Both the position numbers and the translations under genes were made by a program. The notes below the pieces were generated by a model. It searched no databases. It had not been told where the DNA came from and saw only the letters and a program-made list of their open reading frames with translations. Positions 8,040-44,500 of a stretch of 64,000 nt of DNA are shown one piece after another; position 1 is the stretch's first letter, and every line of letters begins with the position of its first letter. The stretch is from Chondrosia reniformis. Taxonomy: Eukaryota > Porifera > Demospongiae > Chondrillida > Chondrillidae. The stretch is from contig OX359190.1 in the NCBI GenBank assembly GCA_947172415.1, positions 2,418,001-2,482,000 of the forward strand, given 5' to 3'.

Positions 8040-8201
8040 GTACATGAATAATCAATGTGATAATCAAACCACAAGTAATAATCAGTCAAACATCATAAAG
8101 AGGGAAAAACACGAAAGAAGCAATTGCTGGGAATTGAACCCAGGACAGCTGGTTATGACCACCAGTGCTCTGCCACTGAGCTACAACCGCCACAGCAATG
8201 C
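8040..8201 (-). mobile_element. tRNA-derived SINE, copy 1
   Basis: The minus strand begins with a tRNA-like head: A box TAGCTCAGTGGCAGAGC, an anticodon-arm-like CTGGT...ACCAG stem around CAT, and B box GGTTCAATTCC. It is followed by a body (CTTTCGTGTTTTTCCCTC ... CTTGTGGTTTGATTATCA) shared with 48848-49005. The anticodon loop lacks T33 and the copies share a non-tRNA body, so this is a SINE, not a tRNA gene. Confidence 0.75.
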
Positions 8202-17280: not shown

Positions 17281-20200
17281 ATGAATACAATGCGATGCCA
17301 TGTAAAATGTATTTTAATGACAATTCTCTTTACTGGTTACTTAATGCTGGCCATTTTCCTGGTGAACCATTTCGAGATTCACAATTCAAGTTCAGTCTTG
17401 ATGGAGAGTTTGGAGTTGGGAAAAGTGACTAATCCGCTTCCATTTGTATACTTTAGCGAGATACAAGCCAGGAAGAATTACGTTGGGAATCTATCCATCA
17501 TTCGAGGGACCATCTCCCAAGTCCTGGACATTCACATCGTGTGGAACGCCACGGAGAATATCACTCACATAGAGAACGTTGTTAATAAAGGTCTTAGCTA
17601 TATAAATGGTCTGAAAGAATTGGATTTTAACTCTAAAGTGGCATTTTTAAGGTGTAATGTTCCAGAAATCTCTTTATTAAAAAAACAATCTGAAGTTGAT
17701 GTTTTTAAGGAGAAGCCTTTGTATGCAGTTAAATTAAAAAATGGCGTATATCAGGAATTTTTTAGCAATTTTACCCTGGATTATTGTTGTTCACCTTTTA
17801 GTCACATGTCATTCATGAAGTTTAATGCTAGCCGGTTCTCTGTAGCCCTGGCCAGCATTCCAGGCTCGGGGAATTCCCTTTTGAGGTACTACATTGAACA
17901 GGTTACTGGCATTTTCAGTGGATCAACAAGTTGTGATGTTGCACTCAAGAGGGTGGGGCATCTTGGGGAAGGAGTGTTTAATTCTCAAGTGTCAGTTGTC
18001 AGATCTAATGAACCATACTCCAATTTATCAGTAATTGCAGTAACGTTTAGAAGAGCAATTCTTTTATTGCGCAATCCATATGCAGCCATTTTGGCAGAAT
18101 ATAATCGAATTGTAACACAAAGTTATGTTGCAAAGTTACCACTTCACCATTACAGTAAGTTTATACACATAAAATAGCATAGGTTATGCGTGCACATCAG
18201 TGTGTACATATTACCACATAACTAATTAAGGATAATCAGTATTAAAAAGCTAAAACCACTAGAGGAAATATCTTTAGAGAACCTGTTTTCTTCTCACTTA
18301 ATGTAACTACATGAAACCAGAAAGTAAAGTGTGTCTTGAGCTAGCCCTGCATGTGAGCATTGCTATTGCATGAAGTCATTTACCTCCTCCTCGCATACTT
18401 TCGACATCCTATTTACTATCATTACCTTAGACTAGCAGACAAATGTAGTATAGGAGTCAGTATTTATTTATTGTAGTATATATGAAGTTTATTGAGCAAC
18501 AGCAACATTAAATCTTTGGAATAGAACGTTTCAACCCGTAGGTCTTCATCAGCAATTCAATAAACTTCATATGTCATCATGATTGTGACAAATAAGCCCT
18601 ATCACTTTATTTATTTATTGTAGTGTATATATATTTACACTCCGTTGCTGGGGCAACCAAGGCAAATTATATTCCACAACTGAAGTATAACTATAATATG
18701 AGGCACAGTCACTTCACTGTGATTGGTCATCGTTGCAATAACCCGCCAAAAACTCAGTAAACGCCTATAAGCTTGCATTATCTCACGAAAATGCAAGAAA
18801 ATGCAACCTTAGGGATGGAGTGTATGACAGTTATGTAATGTCATCTGGTGGAGTGTATTGGTTATACAAGCACTCGCCCTCGGGTGCAAAGTGATATTGT
18901 ATATAACTATTTCTTGTTTTCTGATGTTTATGTGCCTTGCCAGGGTTAGGGCCATTTTGCAAGACAGTTGTGCAAGATTTGTCTATATATACTATATAAA
19001 CTAAATAAAGGATATGCATTGTATATATGTATGTATATATCCTCTTTATAGAATAATCAGGGCCCATGGTTTAGTGAATCTTCCATTCTTCAATGGTACT
19101 TTAGCCGGTATACCATTTTCACTAATATTTATAGTCTGAATCTAAATTTTAATTTATCTATAAAATTAAATTAAATTGTTTCCCAGTTTTTATGTAATAA
19201 CAAATTTTACCCCGTCTATACAACTGTTAGTATGAATAATAAATAGAAAGAGATATTGTATTTTAGGTTTCATAAAGGAATTATAATATTTGGACTGAAG
19301 ATCAATAAAAACTGTTCTAAAGCCTTGTCTCCTTGGTGTATTTTATCAGATGTTGTAGCTACATATGTATGTATAATAGCTGTGAATAGTATAATTATAT
19401 TATATTATTATTATTATTATTAAAGTGCATCATGTGCAAAGCACACTAGGGCGTTTGGCCCATGTAGCACTGTGCAGACAATAAATTAAATTATAAACAT
19501 AAAAAATGGGTTAATTTCCACAAATCGCCATTTAGTCAGTGACATCAGTACTATGTTCGTAGAATCTGTTATACCACATCTTCTCTAGTGCTCTTCCCAT
19601 TCTCCCTTCCTATCTAGTATTAGAACACATTTCTTCTTTTCTCCAATCTCCTGGAATCCTTTGACTGTGTCCCCCATGGCTTGCAAATTATATATATTTT
19701 AGATTATATATTCTCAATATAGATGTTGGAAACATATAGATTGTTTTTTCTTACAAAATCAAGTTACCTTTACTCACATACTGCTATTATATGCCTATTA
19801 AATACAATGGAATAGAATTAGTAAGTTGGGACATACATACGTTTGATACAAAAAATGTCAAATTTTCATAGCATTGCATTGAGATGACAAGTACACATGT
19901 TTCCACTGAAGTCTTAGTAAATATCAAGTCTGTCAGCACAATTGGGTCTTCAAGTAATATTGAACTGTTCTTAATGAATGGTTCTCCTATAGGTATGACC
20001 AATATTAATTGTGTTAATCCAGATTCCTTACATTGAATGGTATGCCTGTGTGAATCCATATTTGTAAAGTACAGTAGCTGTTACTGTTGGAGATTGGTAA
20101 CTTTATACTCCTCATAAAGTGTCATGCAGTTAAACTCAATCAGATAAATGTGGTTCTTTAAGGTTGTTTTTGATAAAACATATACATGCCTCGCTGAGAA

Positions 20201-29188: not shown

Positions 29189-32100
29189 TTACGAACCTTT
29201 AATATTGATTATTAATCTGGTCCTTGGTCTTTCACTTCTAACTTGATCAATAAATCGGTCCACTTGATCTGTTTTGTCACCCATTTTCAGCATAACACTC
29301 CTCAATACACTATTATCCAACACTCCTTGTAGGATGGGTACAGCAAGATGGCTAAATTTAGTCTCAATACACTTGATAGTTAACTTTACTAGTGCTGTGT
29401 TGTTTTGAATACTCTCTTGAACTGCTTTCATGCCTTCTGCAGTAACATCATCCTGTAAAGTGTTATAGAGGATCAAACCATATATTTGTGTTACATAATT
29501 CACTGTACCTACGTACCGCTGATGATTCAGTAAAACTTTCAATGAACAGTTCCTGTAATGTTGTATTATCCCGGAGTCCCTCACTTAGTAAAGTAGCAAT
29601 GTATCCAATTGAAATATTGTAGCTATTAGCAACTGTCAGCTTCCTTAACTTGTTGACCTTCAAGTGGCAACTTAGTCCTGTATGTACAGAGCTATATCAA
29701 CATCCGCTTTTCAATTCATAATATACGTAGAACAGAAGTATACCTTCAAAGTCACAGAATGCCAGTTGCACCTCTTCCAGTGAGTTGTTTTTAGCTATTC
29801 CGCTTATTACAGCAGCTGTCACACTTGGGTATACCTTATACATGCTCAACTTTCTAAGTGAAGTGCTCCCAGCTAGTGCTTGTTCTACAATACCTGGAAA
29901 TTCTGGAGCCATTTTAGGTTCACCAAAGTCCTACATACAAAAATGAGTTATATAAATATAAATATTTCAAATGACAATAAAACTCACGGCAAAGCCATAT
30001 GATAGTTCTTCTAGTTTACCCAAACTGGTAAATATTGCACAATCTTCTTCTTCTAAACTCCCTCTAAAAATATAAAGTACTTGCATCATTCCTCTCCTCA
30101 AATGTGGTACTATTAGTTCAGTTAAATGTCTTCCTTCTATATAATTGGTTTTGAACATTAATAATAATATAATAAAAAGTACAGGATACCTGTATACATT
30201 ATTGACATGAAGTTGGCACTTATCCTTTTGTACAATTACCAATGCATATGTATTTAATAAACAAGTATTTCAAGTTTAAAAACTCGTGGGGCCACCGCCC
30301 CCCCGAATTAACTTGAACTACTTTGCCACTTCGTTGAGATTTAATAAAATATTCATAATCTTAACAATTGAGGACGCTTAAGTGTCCTGAACATTATAAA
30401 TAACGATGGAAAAGCTTTGTTAACTAAAGCTTCCTGAAGCTATATATGCCGCCATTTGCAAAAAAACGATGTATTGACGTTTAAAATAAGTGTTATAATA
30501 GTTGTGTATTAACTCATATTATATATATATATCTTTCTGTAACATGAAGCCATACAATGTAATCGGCAAATGAAAACAATATAAGGGCTGCCCCTAAAAT
30601 TACAATATACCTATATATGTACATTATTGACATGAAGTTTGTATGGATCATACATTTACGTACACCATAGACAATTAGAGTCTTTATAATAGACTATCAT
30701 GAGTGTTCACCTTGTATATGTGCACTGATTCTCTTCAATGCCACCTCTGCACCAAGTGTACCTTTGACCAAATCTTCATCACAATAATGGAGTGAGATAT
30801 GTTCTAAGCATTTCATTTGCTCAAATCTTTTTTTCAATTCATAAATGCTATCCTATATATATATACACAGTATAATGTGTATTATGATTAATAATTTATA
30901 ATTATATACAAAATATTCACCCTTAAAATTTTTACTGTGCCGTTAACATTTAGAAACCTCTTTGTAAGGTCTTATATACGTATACAGTGCAGTCCACATA
31001 ATTTGTATCCGGTTCATTCAAAATTTTGCGTAATTAGAAGAATCCGTATATTCCCTGTATTTCAGTAATACAAAATTTTCGAACGGACAATTTTATTTAG
31101 TTTGAAAAATAGCTTTTGTTTCACCTTAATTTCTAGAATGAAAAGAGGCAGCTACTAATCTTTATCCATAAAGAAAAGGCTCGAAAAAATAGTTGACCAC
31201 TTTGAAGCTTAGTCTCGCGTGGCCCAGACCACTATTTCGCATAATTTTGCCGACTGTGTGACATCATCAAGAAAATGTGGAGGTGAAATAGCGGGACTGG
31301 ACTATGCGAGACTAGTTGAAGCCACAATCTTTGACTGTATGCGCAATTTTTTGACACGTATACACGTCCCGCATTCTTTTAACCACAATGTTTACTTATT
31401 CCCGATATACGGGACTTTACTAGACAGTAACTACTAATGCCAACAGTACTTATAATTGACTATTATAACTAATTTTCTTTCAGTAGAAATTGTGTTTATT
31501 ACATAATATTTGATTTTGATAAAATACTGACAATTCAAATTTTCACCTACGTAATTCAAATTTTTGATAATAAATTCTGAGATTTGAATTTTGTATGTGG
31601 ACTATACTGTATATCAGTAACTTTTAATGAAAATGTGGTCGCTATACATGGGTGGTTGCTTTTACAGCTTGCAGCTGACCATTTCATAACACTTACTAAA
31701 TCTTCACATTCTGAGAGTTTGAAGCATTCTAACTCAAGTTTGAGCAGTTGAACTTGCGTTTCCAATAATCTCAAGAAAGGCTTCAGAGGAAGGTCTGTCT
31801 TTGGAAAGTGTTTACCTGAAAGTTCCAAAGACTTTTGTTTCTTATACTTCATCAAATGTGGAATCATGTCTGCAGTCACTAAACATGAGAAATATAACAA
31901 ATAAATGATATATTAATTTATTATTATTATTATTATTGTATATATAATTTATCCATATTATAGTATGTACTAAAAGTAGTGATACCTCTAGATCTCCTCC
32001 AATATATATTTGAAGGTGAATCACTCAACAAGGCAAGTGCTAGAATGTTAATAAATCACTCATTAAAAACTCAATCCCTGGTAACTCCATGTTAAATTGA

Positions 32101-35100
32101 TTGAGTGAAAGAGTCATCATAATTGAGTTTAAGGCAGTTTTGCATTGATATTTCTTCAGATCATATCTTATATACAATGCCATCATATTTCCTTCTGATC
32201 CATTTGATTGCTATCCATGCAGTTTCTTTCCTTGTCATTCCTTTATTTGTCACCTATTTACTTGCCTCACTGAGTGATTTCTCCCTCGAATCTGATGAGT
32301 GTAAGTTACTTTTGGCATGTAAAAGTATATAAAATGTAGACTCAACACAGATTATATGTTATGTATATGGTCGCTGAAGAAGACCTTCAGGGTCGAAATG
32401 TCTGACAACAAAAAAGACAGAACAAAACTTTGTCTTTAGAGTTGAAACATTATCCTTTCAAAAGATTATACGTATGTTACATTTGGAATTTACATGAAGT
32501 CAAAATGAACAGCTCTTAAACCTGACCAGCTTTGTATAAATAGTTATAAAATTTGCAAAAAGAAAACAAAATGGCTGATCATGGAAAGTGCACCTCTTAA
32601 AATACCAGTCATCAGCCTAAGCAGCCAGTGTTAAAACATTGCCTGATGATAGCAATTCTTTAAGATTGGCTTTAGATCTTAAAGTTCCCCTATTTTTTTC
32701 ATTGATGATCATCGTTGACTTCTCAGCACAAATTGCAAATTGCTGTTTTGAATAAGATATGGCACAACAATTTGCCTACATGTAGCTATGTGTATAAAAA
32801 AGCGTATATTTCCCATTGGCAGAATGTTTTGCAGCAAACTGTTCTGTTCGGCATTTTACTAACACCTGCAAATTTCAGACATGCTGCTACTTGTTGACAA
32901 AGCCAGTTAAACCTCTTCAGCACTTCAAATATCACTTACATTAACCTACCTCTATCTATATGCAAATGCAATTCCTCCAAATTGTTGAAAAGATGGTCAA
33001 GACCTGGTAAATTTGGCATTACTACTGCAGGGCTAGAGTTACCCTATAAAAATCATATATCAAATGTTTTAGTAAAACCATTGGTAGTTGAAATTAAAAA
33101 CTTAACAAAATAGGTAAATATATTGTATAACTACGTACATCATGGCATAAAGAACTAACATGTAAGGAAACATTCAATGACTTCAGATGAGTTAGCTGTT
33201 TGAACAGTTTTGCTAGATTCGCTGTATCATCTAAAAATAATGGGAAAATAGACTATTATATCTCACAATCACACATCCTTAACTTGTCAAATTTATCTTT
33301 GGGATGGTACATCCTTCGACTTTTGAGCGTTTAAAAACGCAGTTGGTTTTTCGATTCTTGGTCAAACGTTTCGACCCTGGGGGTCAGTCCATCCCAAAGA
33401 TAAGTTCGACGCAGTTATAAGGAATCCTTATTCTATTGTCAAATTTAACTTGCAAGGCAATTATGACTGGTACCATCTACATGCAGTAACTCATTTCATT
33501 GTGGAAAATGCAAGTTTAAAAAAGGCATGCATTGCAAATGCAGGTCTCCATGGGGACTGTTGTGGGCATATACCACACACTCAAGAATCTACTGTAACTT
33601 AATTTAGAATCTATAACGTGTATATATATATATATGGTGAAGTTGGCTGCATGCTTACAAAAAGTATTACTAAAATCAAAGCAATTACATGTAACTCAAT
33701 ATGGATTCAGATTATTTTCTTAATGCATCTGTAAACTCATTAGTAAAATCTCTAAGTTGTAGTAATAATAATCACTTTAAAAAAAGTAAGCAATAATTTG
33801 ACGTGTACTGTGTTTAAAATGTGAAAACGATTCAAGCGGAAAATTTTGAATTCATTTAGGTAAATAAGTTGTAAAATTCATTGAAGAATTAAGATTCCAG
33901 CTGTAAAAAGGTATTAAAATATTACTTTGGGTACATATACGTCCCTTTTGGAATCAAAGTACATGAATTAACTTCTTACCCTTTGTAATCCACTCCAACT
34001 GAAGAGCTGTTATGGACTTGGAGTACGAGATAGCTGAGATAGTTGAGGGTATCTTCTCACTAAGCTGCAACTGAACTCTTACTGGAGCAGATGAGGCATG
34101 ACAAAGAAAAGACTCAGCAGCTTCATTATCATAGTGGTATTTATCAACTGTTACTTCAGGTCCTGTGCAGGAAACAATTTGCTGGTGGAAATCTTCAGGA
34201 TATATTAACTGGGGACAGCTCTCCTTTGGTCTAGCTTCTCTGAGGAGACGACACAGCTGGAGTAGTGGGGTATAATCTGAGAAGACAGGATTGGTTCCTT
34301 TGAGTGCATCCAAGAGGTTTTGTTGGAGATCTTTGTTGTGTAAGCCCCCTAAACCAGCATAGAACAGGAACACTCTCTCATACTTAGGGTCTGCAGTCGC
34401 TAGATACCACCTGTCAAATTCATCACATTGAACTGTGAACTTCTTCTGTATGATTTGGTCAATGTCAACTCCATCTGTGATCCATCCTTGTAACATAGCA
34501 TAGGCAGCCATGAATTCCTGAAAGGTCTTGTGAACAAAGTAACAAGATGGAGTCACTTTGCGAAGACCACCCTTTGCTTTGATGCAACTCATCAGACCAA
34601 GGCGATCCTCTTCTGAAAGCTTTTCATCTGAAAAGATCAATTCATTCTCGACAATGCCTTTCAAAGCTAGCTCACACAGGTAGCAAAACCTATCCCCAAC
34701 ATCAGGATGCTGCATAATGTCCTCCAGAGTGGCTACCTCATCTTCTTCTTCATCATAGTCGTCTCCTTTCTTCCTCTTCAAGTGACGCTGAACAGCAAAG
34801 CAGATGATGTGAATATGAAGTGCTGTTTCTGTATCAGGAACATCTCTACCAACATAGCAAATCATTAGTAGAGTTAGGGGTATATGGCAAAGGCTTTTGA
34901 TTGAAGGATATTTCTTAACCAGTTCTAGCATCTTGTCAGCTTGAGATGGAGTATCCTTGTAATAATTCCGCACAAAGAGTTTGATCTTTTCATCATCTAA
35001 TCCATTGATGGTGATACGACGATTGATCAGGCTCTGCAAGGAGTAGGATGCAATGGGACGAGAAGTGATGATAAAGGAGGATTCTCGAAACTGCTTGCCA

Positions 35101-37290
35101 TGAATAATTTCCTTCACTAGAGAGGATTTCTGAAATTTCTCTGAAAGTTCATCAAACCCATCCAAAATGAATAGCACTCCCTTTCCCTTAGATGACCTAA
35201 TATGGTCGCATAAAGTAGTAATTTCATCTTCTTCAAGAGAATAGTTAACATCAAAAGTGCAGCTCTCTACCAAATCTTCCAAAGTGAGCTTGTGTTTAGG
35301 GTCTGAAGGTAGACCTCTCAGAACAACATGGATCAACAGTTCAAAATCTTTACCAAATCTTCCTTGTACCGAGTCTGAACACATCTTCTTTGTTAGAGTT
35401 GATTTGCCAATACCTGCTTCCCCATCAATTAGGATCTTCTTACGACCAGTACCATCTCCCACATAGCTCAGAATATTGTCATATTGGATGGGCTTTGCTT
35501 CCTCCTTTGACTTTCTTTCCAAATCAGCATCAGTTTTTATAGTACAGTCGGGATTGACTAGACTAAGGTTGATGTACTCAACCTTACTGTGATCAGGAAT
35601 CCAATTTTCCTCTGATATATCATGAGACAGGTAGACACGATTTAGACTTTCTTTAGCTTGCTATATAAATACATCAAAAGAAAGAAACGATATTTATATA
35701 TATCTAAAAGGCAAAACCTTGTCAAACTGAATGCCCTTGTGACCAACTGTTCAAAGGCTGTTAGGATTAGTGAGGTATCACATACTACAATACCTAACTG
35801 AAAGAGTATATATTGATTCCATTTGTCACTTGAAACTTTTACAAATTGACAATTAAATTTAAATTTTATATTATCCAAAGACAAGTCAACTCTTTTTTAC
35901 TTTCAATCCGGTTAGTAGATATTATTTAGGCTTATCGAGTGCTTTTCATGGATGTTAACATCTTACGTGACTATATAGAACTACCAAGCAATGAATTCTC
36001 TATTATTGTGGAATTTGTATAACTGAACATGGATGCACATGTTCGATATAAAATTATATGCAATTGTGTTCACAGAAATCTTATTTGACTATATATGTGT
36101 TGTATACGATGTGTGAGAAGAACTGATACATATTTAGCCTAATACAAAAACCTACCATAAATGTCTGATCATTTGATTTGGGAGATTTGATGGCATCTGT
36201 TGATGTGTTCTGTATACCTAAAATATACCAATTAAAATTGGTGAGCTACGTAGTAATCACATTTGTGACTAGCAATTAAAAAGTACCAGATACTATAGTT
36301 TACATTAAAATTGCTTGTAGATCTAAGACTTATTTAAAATATTCTATAATCATGATCAATTAAAAGCCATGCCGGCATATATCAGTATCTAAGTAAGGAT
36401 GGCCCAAAAAATGGCCACCATATTCAATGTAGTGTATTATTTGAAAATAAACAACAAATGCATTTGTACGTAGTCTTTTTAAGCTTCCAAAACATCACTT
36501 CTTATCCATATAGTGAGGATTATAGCTAAACTATTTATATATGAAGCCTTAGCCAAGTAATTATATTTTTAAAATTTATACCCGATTACCATGGCATTCA
36601 GATGCATACGATTTTATTAACTTCCTGTATAAATTTACACCTTTATCCTATTAATCAGGAATTTCATTTATACAATTCCATGCACAAAGAGCTTTTCTTA
36701 ACCAACATAAGAATCATTTCTCAGAAAACACTCTGAGTAAATAGGAACCTTTTTAATCTGTAATCACACTATAGGAGCTATACGTTTATATAATTTCTGA
36801 AAACAAACGTTACGTAGCTATCTATTGACAAGGAAGGTGCATGTTTCTCTACTACAAGCCATAGACATGTACATGGTAATAGATGCTTATTCACATGCTC
36901 AAGAGTCTTTGAGACACAACTTTCTGTCAAAACATGTTTTGCCATCAATCAATCATTTTCATACCCACCTGATGAGGTAATTTTGAGAGATAAGAAAACT
37001 TCAATAGCCTTTGCAAACCTCTTGTTCGTGTTTGTAGTTTCAGGAGCTTCCTTTAGTACTTTGGCAGCTGCTTTAAGTGTCTCTGGAGCTGGGTCATTGT
37101 GAAGGAACTGGTGGAACAGGTTATTTGCATCAGCTGCACTTGAACTAGAGTCTATTTGTTGTCTCTGTCCTTGAGATATGGCATGCTCACGTTCAAGATC
37201 AAAACGTACAACTTTAGTATTACAGTGCTTTATATGACTCTCCCTGTGCTGGTCCAGGAAGGCAATGACCTCATCTGGACTCCTTTCCAT
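29189..37290 (-). CDS. NLR receptor: CARD-like, NACHT, LRR; 11 coding exons
   Basis: Exons (minus): 37290-36969, 36217-36156, 35660-33980, 33230-33160, 33043-32950, 31878-31697, 30852-30711, 30136-29988, 29930-29744, 29677-29517, 29452-29189. Every junction is GT-AG and phase-consistent; total 3315 nt, 1104 residues. Residues 1-107 look like a death-fold domain, CARD-like in the helix pattern around ADANNLFHQFL. NACHT: Walker A GEAGIGKST at 208-216, Walker B LFILDGFDEL at 291-300, then FIITSRP. After the helical region, residues about 689-1104 are leucine-rich repeats (for example SLRKLSMYKV, ALVKLTIKC), mostly one or two per exon. The architecture matches cytosolic pattern receptors that oligomerise on sensing microbes. 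The start ATG is 2 bp after an acceptor, so a 5' untranslated exon probably lies upstream. CARD assignment is less sure than NACHT. Confidence 0.87.
30270..30600 (+). repeat. Interspersed repeat, copy 2 (see 2640-3025)
   Basis: Begins near AAACTCGTGGGGCCACC and ends near GGGCTGCCCCTAAAAT, with ATGAAGCCATACAAT inside. It lies in an LRR-region intron of the NLR. Confidence 0.5.
31210..31314. mobile_element. Small MITE, TIR TAGTCTCGC
   Basis: TAGTCTCGCGTGGCCCAGAC on the left and GGACTATGCGAGACTA on the right are inverted over about 30 bp with mismatches. A relative is at 54453-54527. Located in NLR intron 6. Confidence 0.7.
31946..32450. repeat. NLR intron 6 block, duplicated at 39954-40495
   Basis: About 500 bp that matches 39954-40495 almost base for base, ending in CTGAAGAAGACCTTCAGGGT plus CGAAA. 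It carries no NLR exon on either strand. Confidence 0.85.
33299..33450. repeat. Diverged fold-back fragment in an NLR intron
   Basis: GGGATGGTACATCCTTCGAC ... TTTCGACCCTGGGGGTCAGT ... CCATCCC is a partial hairpin related to the 12945-13056 fold-back and to 14040-14075 (GATAAGTTCGACxCAGTT). Confidence 0.5.
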
Positions 37291-37292
37291 TG

Positions 37293-39660
37293 CTACAGAA
37301 CACAAAAACAACAGGTAAATTTAAAGACTTGCATCATATTACAGTAATGTCTATTTATTCTAGCCTGTACTAAAGCGATAATTCAGAAAAAAATGAAGAC
37401 AAAATGGTAAACTGAAGTTGTATAGTAAAATTAATGGTAGCCCTCATGTCCATCTTATAACAATTTATATATAGACAATATAGTGACTGCACTTTGTTAC
37501 TGGTTTTGTGTGAAATGGTATAGCTACCGGTCAGAGATATAAACCTAAAAATACACGGCAAATATATACACTTTATTACATCTAAGAGCATTTTACACAC
37601 ATATATATATGTAAAAGGAGGTGTGAAAAATGTGATTGCTTCAGGTTTCGAACCATCCACCCTCTCCATCTAGACAAACAAGTGAGTTATCATACGTACC
37701 TATCAGAGTTAACTGGAAAATATGCCTCTATATAAGCTGTGTCAGCTTCTGTTAGGATTTTAATTAGCCAGCAGACATGACAAAAACCTTAATTACACAG
37801 TAGGGTTAATTAAAATAAATGCCACTGAATTCAAGAACGTCTATATATAAATGTGCAATATACACTGCAGTCCTTAAGTTATATTTAGTGATCATAGTGA
37901 CATCGTCATACGTATATATAACAATTTGAGTTTTAAACCTATAGGCCTACACTGCAAAGGCTTTTTACTATATGTAAACTATGAATCATACACGTGAAAG
38001 CTTTAGCAAAGCTTATGCCAGTTTGAATGATATGAATCTAATTTAACAAATGAATCTAATTTAACAAAACAATCAGATGCTATACAGATAAGATACTACA
38101 TATTCAGGTAGATCATTTTCTATGACCCTATATAGTGAGAGGTGAGGTTGATTAAAGTAACTCTTGCCAAAAGATTTCACTAAAGGCTAAGTAATCTCCA
38201 ATTATTTCTTAAGAGAATGTTGGCCATTTACATGAAATTCAACACTGCAATAATGACTATGAATATCATTAAGTTTATGTTTCCTGTAACATTATCAACA
38301 CATGATTTTGGGAATCAACCAATCACTCAGGAATCACTAATATCCTATCTCAAAGGTGGATTCATGCATGCTAAATTTTGTCAATTATTAGGACTTTGAC
38401 AATGTCTTGACTGTATAGATCTGTGAAGTGAATTTGAAAATGTGAATGTGAATGTGAAAGTGAATAGTAACATTTGAGGTGAATTGTTCAGCTATATATA
38501 CATGAATCATACAACACCCTTGCTTGTAGGATTCATGCATAGCTAATGCTTCACTGTGTAACATCCCTTTCTTGTTTATGTGCTTTTTGTGCCATCCCTA
38601 CATTTTCACTATTTTTGTAGAAAATTTTTATTTTTCTCTAGTTTCTGTACTTTTTATGGAGCATAAGCTAGGAATTCGATTGTATTTAAACCCATTTTGG
38701 CTTCGCAATCTTCGATTGATTATGACGTCATTAAAATGGCGAATTTATTGAGGCCTTGACTCTGGGGCCATGAAAACTGTCATACTCAATAATAGCGTTA
38801 TCGCTCTCGCTTCTACAAAGAATACAGCTCGGAAAATTTGCAATAGTTTCGTTTAACAATTAGTCCAAAAGCTTGTATAGTTTTTTTAGTTATGGCTGAC
38901 GAAGAATAAGAAGAATAGGAAGACGAAATATAGCTAATTAAAAATCTGCGCACCTTAAAATTAGCATATTTTGTACCTAGGGACAATATGAATATTTACT
39001 CCATCTTACTTTATTGATCTTGGAAGATCTATATCTTGCAAGCTAGCTAGATTGCGTTAATCAGCTCTGCTACTGATATGGCTTCCCACTTTCCCTTTTC
39101 CCTTTTCCCCACTCCTGCGCTAGCGCGGCAACTGCTGCAACTCAAATAGTCTCCAGATAGGTATATAGATCGGTCTATGTATGAGTCGAGGAAATGAAGG
39201 AAAGTATTATATTGATCTTTCGGTATTGATCTCGTGATCTAACTATAAACTGCGCATGCGCTGCTCGCTATGTATACCGTAATTCTCTAAAAATTCGGAA
39301 ACATTAATTATTCGGGCATGCAGCAATGTTTACTTAGCGAAGGAAGAATTTTGTAAGCCATCATGCAGAGTATTGCTGCATTTAAGCTTCCCGAAAGCCG
39401 CCATTTGAAAATACGTAAGTAGATTCTGTGCTTATACAAATAGATCTGTAAAATCCCGAACACCGAAGACACATAAGAGACAAGAGATCTTAATCGGGAT
39501 ATCTCGTCCTTTTAATCCAGTACCCATATTGTGCTGGGACATTAATAGTAGAAAGTTTAACTAACGTTTCACTAGTGTATCGATTGAAGTACATAAAGTT
39601 GTTCTAATGAAGTCTTGAAATAGAGTGATTGCAGTATATTCAATTTTGTGTATGTAGCGT
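37293..39660. other. NLR 5' flank, no gene seen
   Basis: AT-rich to about 38650, then more CpG-containing sequence to about 39450. A noncoding first exon and promoter of the NLR are expected here, but I could not place them. Confidence 0.4.
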
Positions 39661-41586: not shown

Positions 41587-44500
41587 ATGGCTGACAGCAA
41601 AGGACACGCCAAGGCTCCGGAAACGCTAGAAGAAGCGAAGAAAGCATCGCTTTGTTCTGAAGTTTTTAGCGAGGATGACTTCAAGCAGGCGGCTCTCGAT
41701 TTTTGCAAAATGAATCTCGAAGGCTACGAGTTCTTTCTAGAAACCATGAATATAAAGTTCTACCGAAAATACCAAAAAGTTAGCTAATATGCTTTAGCTT
41801 CCTCTAATAATTTAATAGAATTAGGAATTAGGTTAATTATTTTCTTGCTGTAAACAATTCATGGATTCATAAATGATCAAGATCAAGAGAAAGACAAAGA
41901 TTCCCAGGGTCACTGATGAAGGGTGAAATTCGTCCAAAGGTTTAATTCCCTATAGGCTTTTTTACAGAATAGGGGCATCTATAGCATGAAAATCTAATAC
42001 ACCATTTTCCTACATGTTATGCCTACTCTGTAAAAAAGCCTATAGGGAACTAAACCTGAAGACAGCTTTGGATGAAGATTTTTCTTTTCTTTTCTTTCTT
42101 CTTCTGCTCCACTGGGCCATGTAGGAAAATGGTGTATTAGATTTTTCATGTAGGCCAGGTACATTTACAATATTTCATGTACGTAGGACTCCAAGTTATA
42201 TGAGTACAAGATCATTGGTGTTCAGGAAGATCTGGATCCAGAAATATCTGCTCAAGTGTACATGGACTGGGATTATCGGAAAAAATGGGACACATTTGTA
42301 TTAGGTAAATATATATCGTATAGACCTAAATTTTTGTAGGACTAAACTTTCGCGGTTTTCGCGGATTGGCAGCCATCCGCGAAAGTTAAGTCCCACGAAA
42401 ATTTAGGTCCATACAGTAGCTACCGAGAGACCTGTATTGGGTAAATATATAGCTACAGAGAGGCCTGTATTAGGTAAATATATAGCTACAGAGAGGCCTG
42501 TATTGGGTAAATATATAACTACAGAGAGGCCTGTATTGGGTAAATATATAGCTACAGAGAGGCCTGTATTGGGTAAATATATAGCTACAGAGAGGCCTGT
42601 ATTGGGTAAATATATAGCTACAGAGAGGCCTGTATTGGGTAAATATATAGCTACAGAGAGGCCTGTATTGGGTAAATATATAGCTACAGAGAGGCCTGTA
42701 TTGGGTAAATATATAACTACAGAGAGGCCTGTATTGGGTAAATATATAGCTACAGAGAGGCCTGTATTGGGTAAATATATAGCTACAGAGAGGCCTGTAT
42801 TGGGTAAATATATAACTACAGAGAGGCCTGTATTGGGTAAATATATAGCTACAGTGAGGCCTGTATTAGGTAAGTATATATAGCTACAGAGAGGCCTGTA
42901 TTGGGTAAATATATAGCTACAGTGAGGCCTGTATTGGGTAAATATATAGCTACAGAGAGGCCTGTATTAGGTAAATATATAGCTACAGTGAGGCCTGTAT
43001 TAGGTAAATATATAGCTACAGTGAGGCCTGTATTGGGTATATATATAGCTACAGTGAGGCCTGTATTGGGTAAATATATAGCTACAGAGGGGCTTGGATT
43101 TATTGACTGTTACTCAATAAAACTGTTGCTACACATATATTCTATTCTCTATATTGTAATGAATAAGAATCAGTATTCTGAGCACCCTCAGAACAGTACC
43201 AAGAATCAATAGTTTATAGCATTATTGGTTAGCTGTATGTCACTTTATCTTGCACTGCAGACCTGCATCCTATCAAAGATGACAAGAGTGGCAAGGAGGG
43301 ACTGTACTGGCTGGTAGACTACCCATGGCCTCTCTGGGACAGAGATGTATCCTCATTGTCCATTCAAACAGTTTCTCAATCTTTATGTGATGAAAGGGAG
43401 AGTTATATGATTGTGCAATACCTGTACAAGGTTTTACAGTAAATGTACTGGAAATATCTTCTCTTGGTTGAGGGATGTATCCATACACTATAATATGTAT
43501 GTATATGTATCTATACACTATAATATGTATCCATACACTATAATATGTATGTATATGTATCTATACACTAATGTATGTATATGTATCTATATGTACGTAT
43601 ATGTATCTATACACTATAATATGTACGTATATGTATCTATACACTATAATATGTATGTATATGTATCTATACACTATAATATGTATGTATATGTATCCAT
43701 ACACTATAATATAATGTATATATGTATCTACACAGTATAGTTTACAAGCTGATATACAGGTAAAATTCCCAGAAACAGTTGTCTGGTCCAATGAAGTAAA
43801 AGAAGAAAGAGAAGACTCCTGTATCCTCATCCAAAGCTCTCACCAGATTTAGTTCCCTATAGGAATTTACAGAGTAGGCATAACATGGAAAATGTTGTAT
43901 TAGGTAATTTATTTGCAAACTTGTATTTTACATTGTTGTGGACATATATTTGTTGAAAGATTAATAGTGTTAAAGCTTCTCTTATGAATAATCACTCTTC
44001 AATGTTCTACATCTACTTTAGAGTAGAAGACCTATAGGGAATTAAGTCAAGTGAGAACTTTGGATTAGGATACAAGAGATTTCTACTTCTACTTATCCAC
44101 TGGTACAGACAGCTGTTTCTGGGAATTCCACCCTTCCTGTATTCTGTATTTTACAATTATCATACTGTTTGAACTCACCAAATGTACACATAGTATACTA
44201 TATCTGTGCCTTCCTTGACTTCATTGTTGCTGTATAGTACACGTTTGTAAGAGATGCTAGGTTGGTTGAGGTTAATGGAATGAAGACCTGGGTGGTGATG
44301 GCTAGAAGTGAGCAGTTTGAGAGCGTGCCAGAGAAAGACGGATACGTCAGGGTGGATGGCTATGTACAGACCTGCGTTATGCAAAGTGATGGAAAGAAGG
44401 GATCCAAAGGTATCGTGTGGAACTGCCATATTTATAGTGTCTAACTACACTGGGACTGAGGAGTAGTTTGTGTTAAAAACTACCAACCTACCTATACATG

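Follow-up and report, generated by a model that had tools for sequence, protein, structure and literature searches.

Structure of the receptor gene

The stretch of DNA analysed here (the window, 64,000 nucleotides) lies at positions 2418001-2482000 of contig C2 of the sponge Chondrosia reniformis and carries, on its minus strand, a gene for a putative CARD-NACHT-LRR receptor (37290-29189), whose first exon has copies elsewhere in the same genome (117,379,552 bp, 15 contigs). Joining of the 11 exons of this gene yielded a single open reading frame of 1086 codons plus stop, and every internal junction was of the GT-AG type. An earlier note on this DNA, based on the letters alone, had described eleven intact exons in phase, a description that was borne out. 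On these grounds, the window gene is predicted to be a real and intact immune-receptor gene.

Exon 1 (36969-37290 from its ATG) encodes 107 residues, referred to here as a domain of type X, and is symmetric (phase 1-1). It is followed by a 62-nt linker exon (exon 2, 36156-36217, phase 1-0) and by a large exon of 560 codons (exon 3, 33980-35660, phase 0-1), which encodes the NACHT domain and the helical region after it. Exon 1 starts 2 nt 5' of the ATG, directly behind an AG acceptor. Because of this acceptor, a further exon probably exists upstream of exon 1, where none was found. At the 3' side, exon 11 had weak homologues (E 3e-6 to 0.01) on C2, C3, and C7, where they lay downstream of other NACHT places; this supported the proposed end of the gene.

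NACHT (residues 204-364, E 3.9e-21) was the sole Pfam family above cut-off in the whole protein. Both nucleotide-binding motifs claimed in the earlier note were recovered on the minus strand: Walker A (GEAGIGKST, residues 208-216, 35397-35423) and Walker B (LFILDGFDE, residues 291-299, 35148-35174). The window gene thus has the NACHT domain with Walker A and B motifs that is one of the marks of the NLR family. Chains of NLRP3 were the top matches of the NACHT exon in the PDB (best E 1.6e-14). Its nearest relatives in the genome, mainly in a cluster on chromosome 7, were ~42% identical, and the window NACHT therefore represents an isolated lineage. A search for phage relatives of this exon gave no match.

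In the LRR-type exons 4-11, 12 LxxLxL-like cores were recognized by eye. One core was present in each of exons 4 (33139-33230), 5 (32950-33043), 7 (30711-30852), and 8 (29988-30061), and two in each of exons 6 (31697-31878), 9 (29744-29930), 10 (29517-29677), and 11 (29189-29452), the last of which is terminal and carries the stop codon. An organization with one repeat per exon, as previously proposed, was therefore not found. A strict LRR motif matched 10 times (shuffle mean 4.9, P 0.021), while the 16 matches of a loose motif were not above chance (13.7 in shuffles, P 0.28). Pfam detected no LRR above cut-off in the window protein, and matches of the tail in the PDB were weak, with a chain named MOP84A (E 0.0037) preceding ribonuclease inhibitor (E 0.07). 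Phases of exons 4-11 alternated (8 of 8), with 1-0 in exons 4, 6, 8, and 10 and 0-1 in exons 5, 7, and 9. The alternation noted earlier thus applied to the window gene and not to the family as a rule: among the first three LRR exons of a paralogue on C7 (L040), with which the tail was compared, the third had phase 1-1 and two cores (by eye). Gain or loss of LRR exon pairs without loss of frame, also suggested in the earlier note, is arithmetically sound; nothing showed that it has occurred, and the evidence for exchange concerns exon 1.

The N-terminal domain and its relatives

Pfam scanning of exon 1, which covered DED and PYD, returned no death-fold family, and no NCBIfam match was obtained. 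A profile built from X-type domains detected a second group, the CARD1-type domains, with an E of 1e-14. Two CARD1-type domains, as well as domain 2 of locus L035, matched Pfam CARD at E 0.0015-0.0071, under the curated cut-off. In a wider family profile (A5), 3 of the 18 members matched Pfam CARD at E 1. Profile-to-profile comparison, which covered CARD and Death, gave an hhalign value of 91.9 for A5 against ten CARDs that Pfam recognizes in this genome and of 0.3 against ten Death domains. With alternative settings these values were 81.4 and 0.4, respectively, and the highest of 200 column shuffles reached 3.8. CARD8-CARD chains headed the PDB matches of the wide profiles (E 0.013 and 0.029), the E value having improved from 0.11 to 0.013 with widening of the profile.

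These results indicated that residues 1-107 are most readily read as a divergent CARD and not as a Death domain, a type that was rejected on the hhalign value of 0.3. The CARD-like character proposed in the earlier note was thereby placed on firmer ground, although the profile check of these residues succeeded through the A5 family and not by direct Pfam search. By the same token, an N-terminal CARD, which defines the NLRC class, was absent from the window gene when judged by direct profile match and present when judged by homology through an intermediate family; the N-terminal Death domain of the NLRD class was absent.

A genome-wide census was made of such cryptic CARDs. From 150 scored X-type matches, 78 were kept, after removal of two 63-residue fragments on C11 and of 70 lower-ranked matches; 66 of the 78 were without a flagged in-frame stop and 12 had one. 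Together with the best 150 of 342 CARD1-type candidates, this brought the number of cryptic CARD places to at least 228 (78 X-type, at least 150 CARD1-type) vs. 25 places detected as CARD by Pfam, and no overlap occurred among the X-type places, these best 150 CARD1-type candidates, and the 25 Pfam places. CARDs were linked to a NACHT place when located on the same strand, at most 5 kb upstream, and without an intervening NACHT. By this rule, 46 of 101 NACHT (PF05729) places had a cryptic CARD (16 X-type and 30 CARD1-type), 13 had a Death domain, and 42 had neither, while none of the 101 had a Pfam CARD within this distance. An opposite-strand control gave 0 of 101, and a census with the top 79 CARD1-type matches plus three picked near NACHT places likewise gave 46 of 101.

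Probable exchange of the X exon between genes

At an identity of at least 68%, 28 copies of X, the window copy included, were found on ten chromosomes, and 16 of these had a NACHT domain within 5 kb downstream. For analysis of divergence, the window exon was compared with 28 copies (loci L010-L037; 29 exons in total). Synonymous divergence (dS, substitutions per synonymous site) from the window exon was 0.11-0.28 for 26 of the 28, four of which were near-identical to one another. The remaining copies were distant, with a dS of 1.62 for L035 and 1.37 for L037 (proportions of differing synonymous sites, pS, of 0.66 and 0.63) and a ratio of nonsynonymous to synonymous divergence (dN/dS) of 0.15-0.18 relative to the window.

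Divergence of X and of the adjacent NACHT was compared in 12 of the 16 X-NACHT genes, with the single in-frame stop in the NACHT piece on C1 left out codonwise. These genes represented four NACHT lineages: that of the window, that of C7, that of C4, C6, C8, and C9, and that of C1 and C10. In all 49 pairs with a NACHT pS above 0.6, the pS of X was at most 0.27 (median 0.18); in the C10-C8 pair, NACHT pS was 0.87 vs. 0.05 for X. Since the X copies agree at synonymous sites across lineages whose NACHT domains are saturated, the CARD exon seems to have been copied recently, by movement or conversion, between otherwise very different genes.

Boundaries of the shared sequence were located by BLAST of the window exon against 22 copies. 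Identity stopped 2-17 bp inside the following intron, and its start ranged from 3 bp within the exon to 29 bp 5' of the ATG (74 bp for L011). Splice sites of the exon were well preserved, with the acceptor conserved in 26 and the phase-1 donor in 27 of the 29 sequences, and because junctions at both ends are in phase 1, the exon can move without loss of frame. Longer flanks were shared by some unlinked pairs, such as L011 (C3) and L017 (C7), which had ~1.1 kb upstream in common. Upstream of the window exon, a non-coding island (37400-37531, minus strand) was 75-80% identical to sequence preceding the X exon in L010, L014, L017, L028, and L033. Both gene conversion and intron recombination are compatible with these observations. 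A shared promoter, considered for similarities at 38490-38710 to L024 and at 38512-38630 to L013, was rejected in favor of a dispersed repeat. This repeat (38490-38800) had at least 40 scored copies with an identity of ~95%, as well as partial opposite-strand matches beside many of them, and was reminiscent of a miniature inverted-repeat transposable element.

Several observations weigh against the assignment and the exchange of the exon. Exon 1 and its 25 close copies (0 of 26) did not match Pfam CARD (PF00619) even at E 10. A narrow profile of X (A1) gave an hhalign value of 2.9 against CARD, which was no match, and in the PDB its top match was Midline-1 (E 0.81), narrowly before NLRP1 (E 0.89). 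The CARD assignment therefore depends on the wider family, and among the weaker PDB matches of wide profiles, unrelated chains were encountered (an NADH dehydrogenase subunit and a capsid protein). Such failures of direct detection, to which the absence of an NCBIfam match can be added, would fit a domain with another small helical fold, or of another death-fold subfamily (DED, PYD, or a new one). This explanation appears unlikely: the family profile matched CARD and not Death, the best PDB matches of the wider profile were to CARD8-CARD, and an NLRP1 chain and, for wide profiles, an ASC fusion chain were also matched at E near 1, over segments that we take to be their CARDs.

With respect to the exchange, a lineage signal persisted in X, with a within-lineage pS of 0.05-0.18 (17 pairs), and L011 had an in-frame TAA directly 5' of the donor. 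Moreover, the ratio of nonsynonymous to synonymous differences per site (pN/pS) was 0.90 for X (0.67-1.26; 24 close copies) vs. 0.44 for NACHT (0.38-0.53; 17 C7 exons from 30 loci). The 24 were drawn from the 29 X sequences by leaving out L023, L025, and L027, which were near-identical to L024, and the distant L035 and L037. A value of 0.90 is unusual for an interaction domain under tight constraint and may possibly reflect relaxed constraint, diversifying selection, or age effects. It could also mean that synonymous change was depressed, as would be expected if the exon only appeared young, its copies having been inherited vertically with synonymous sites held by splicing or codon signals. 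The strong conservation of the splice junctions is in line with that explanation, which nevertheless seems improbable: synonymous sites of X are not frozen, because L035 and L037 differ from the window at a dS of 1.62 and 1.37, X copies from four NACHT lineages fall within a pS of 0.27, and unlinked copies on C3 and C7 have long flanks in common. Even less probable is that X is a spreading passenger without function in the window gene. Although a pN/pS near 1 among close copies would suit a passenger, the window gene is open across 1086 codons, dN/dS relative to the distant copies was low (0.15-0.18), and most kept copies lacked a flagged in-frame stop. The window gene is thus considered, with fairly high confidence, to encode a cytosolic CARD-NACHT-LRR receptor with a divergent CARD encoded by a symmetric exon that, at synonymous sites, is far younger than the adjacent NACHT.

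Candidate partners, proposed mechanism, and comparison with known systems

The signalling partner, left open in the earlier note, was partly clarified by the neighbors of other X copies, which included Death-like, second CARD-like, P-loop-like, and COR-like sequence, all from weak matches or by eye. L010 contained a Death-like frame (Pfam Death E 0.033), a TEPQ-type linker, and then X, and the same arrangement was recognized by eye in L033. A CARD1-type domain, TEPQ linker, X, and then NACHT occurred in L017 and L028, and a fragment of a CARD1-type domain was discerned by eye in L011. PPQKE-type linkers followed X in L020, L030, and L032; L020 additionally had a P-loop-like frame (AAA_22 E 0.02) and, by eye, a Death-like frame. 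L036 had a Death-like frame downstream of X (Pfam Death E 0.019), and COR-like sequence lay 5' of X in L035 (COR-A E 0.15). Genes with X beside a Death-like domain are candidate homotypic CARD partners. Their Death matches were under the Pfam cut-off, the Death-like frame of L020 had no Pfam match at all, and gene joins at these other loci are adjacent frames, combined by proximity and reading. In the window, ten partner-type queries, Death-like pieces included, gave a single match below E 0.1, to exon 1 itself; the search of the window also revealed no upstream counterpart of the second CARD or of the TEPQ linker present in L017 and L028. At L030 on C3, a caspase-like sequence (2-295; Pfam Peptidase_C14 E 0.003, below cut-off) was observed upstream of the X copy.

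In NLR proteins, the LRR domain senses or restrains, ATP binding by NACHT leads to oligomerization, and clustered CARDs nucleate a filament. By analogy, the LRR tail of the window receptor would sense or restrain, ATP bound by its NACHT domain would drive oligomerization, and the clustered CARDs might nucleate a filament that recruits proteins with the same CARD type and relays the signal, with the genes that combine X and a Death-like domain as candidate recruits. By exchanging the effector exon, ectopic gene conversion or intron recombination could then keep or reset the choice of adaptor, while sensor and motor diverge. It is conceivable, as a tentative proposal, that the CARD exon serves as a signalling code open to exchange, in which ectopic conversion spreads new CARD variants across unrelated NACHT lineages and adaptors and so preserves compatibility during fast change. 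If so, the effector rather than the sensor would be the shared, fast-changing part of these receptors. If the exchange of the exon as such holds, trading of an NLR effector domain, and not of the sensor, between genes would be a way to rewire innate immune signalling that can be put to the test.

Vertebrate NLRC and NOD receptors have the domain order CARD-NACHT-LRR, with the NACHT on a single large exon and the LRRs on short exons after it. The window gene resembles them in predicted domain order, Walker motifs, and the combination of a large NACHT exon with short LRR-type exons. It differs in that its CARD lies beneath Pfam detection and appears to be exchanged at exon level, and in that its LRR exons have mixed repeat numbers and alternating phases.

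According to the main text of a sponge survey based on Pfam and SMART (PMC12909245), Dysidea avara has NLRC, NLRD, and NLRX genes, with NACHT genes expanded and in chromosomal clusters; 7 of the 11 sponge genomes lacked NLRC, and the main class was NLRX. The name Chondrosia was not found in that main text. C. reniformis is likewise a demosponge with a large, clustered expansion of NACHT genes, but in contrast to the D. avara census as described there, none of its 101 NACHT places had a Pfam CARD and 46 had a cryptic one. Censuses based on Pfam would thus miss CARD receptors in C. reniformis, and an undercount in other sponges is predicted. If this holds, domain-database censuses undercount CARD receptors, at least in C. 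reniformis, a point of relevance to the idea that early animals have few such receptors.

Exchange of exons is known from vertebrate NLR genes. In zebrafish NLR-B30.2 genes (PMC4852459), gene conversion is reported to affect NACHT in another way than B30.2, with shuffling of N-terminal repeats among groups. Separate conversion of individual exons and shuffling of N-terminal units between NACHT groups are features also proposed here for C. reniformis. In the zebrafish account, cross-group conversion and positive selection concern the C-terminal B30.2, and what is shuffled at the N-terminus is a short peptide repeat, whereas the shared module in C. reniformis is a putative death-fold effector that is also present away from NACHT. 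Judging by title and opening of the abstract, domain grafting and exon-intron change in lophotrochozoan innate sensors (PMC8998645) offer a further likeness, which concerns RIG-I-like receptors and not NLRs; exon shuffling of brown-algal ROCO genes is indicated by the title of PMC11378527. Among titles and abstract openings, with incomplete coverage, no description was found of a death-fold effector exon common to divergent NLRs and other genes.

Elsewhere in the window, an open reading frame of 298 codons on the plus strand (17281-18177) matched no Pfam family above cut-off. A selenocysteine tRNA was called on the minus strand (8117-8191) by ARAGORN in its bacterial setting, and a minisatellite at 42403-42966 was open on both strands, with units YLPNTGLSVAI and ERPVLGKYIAT.

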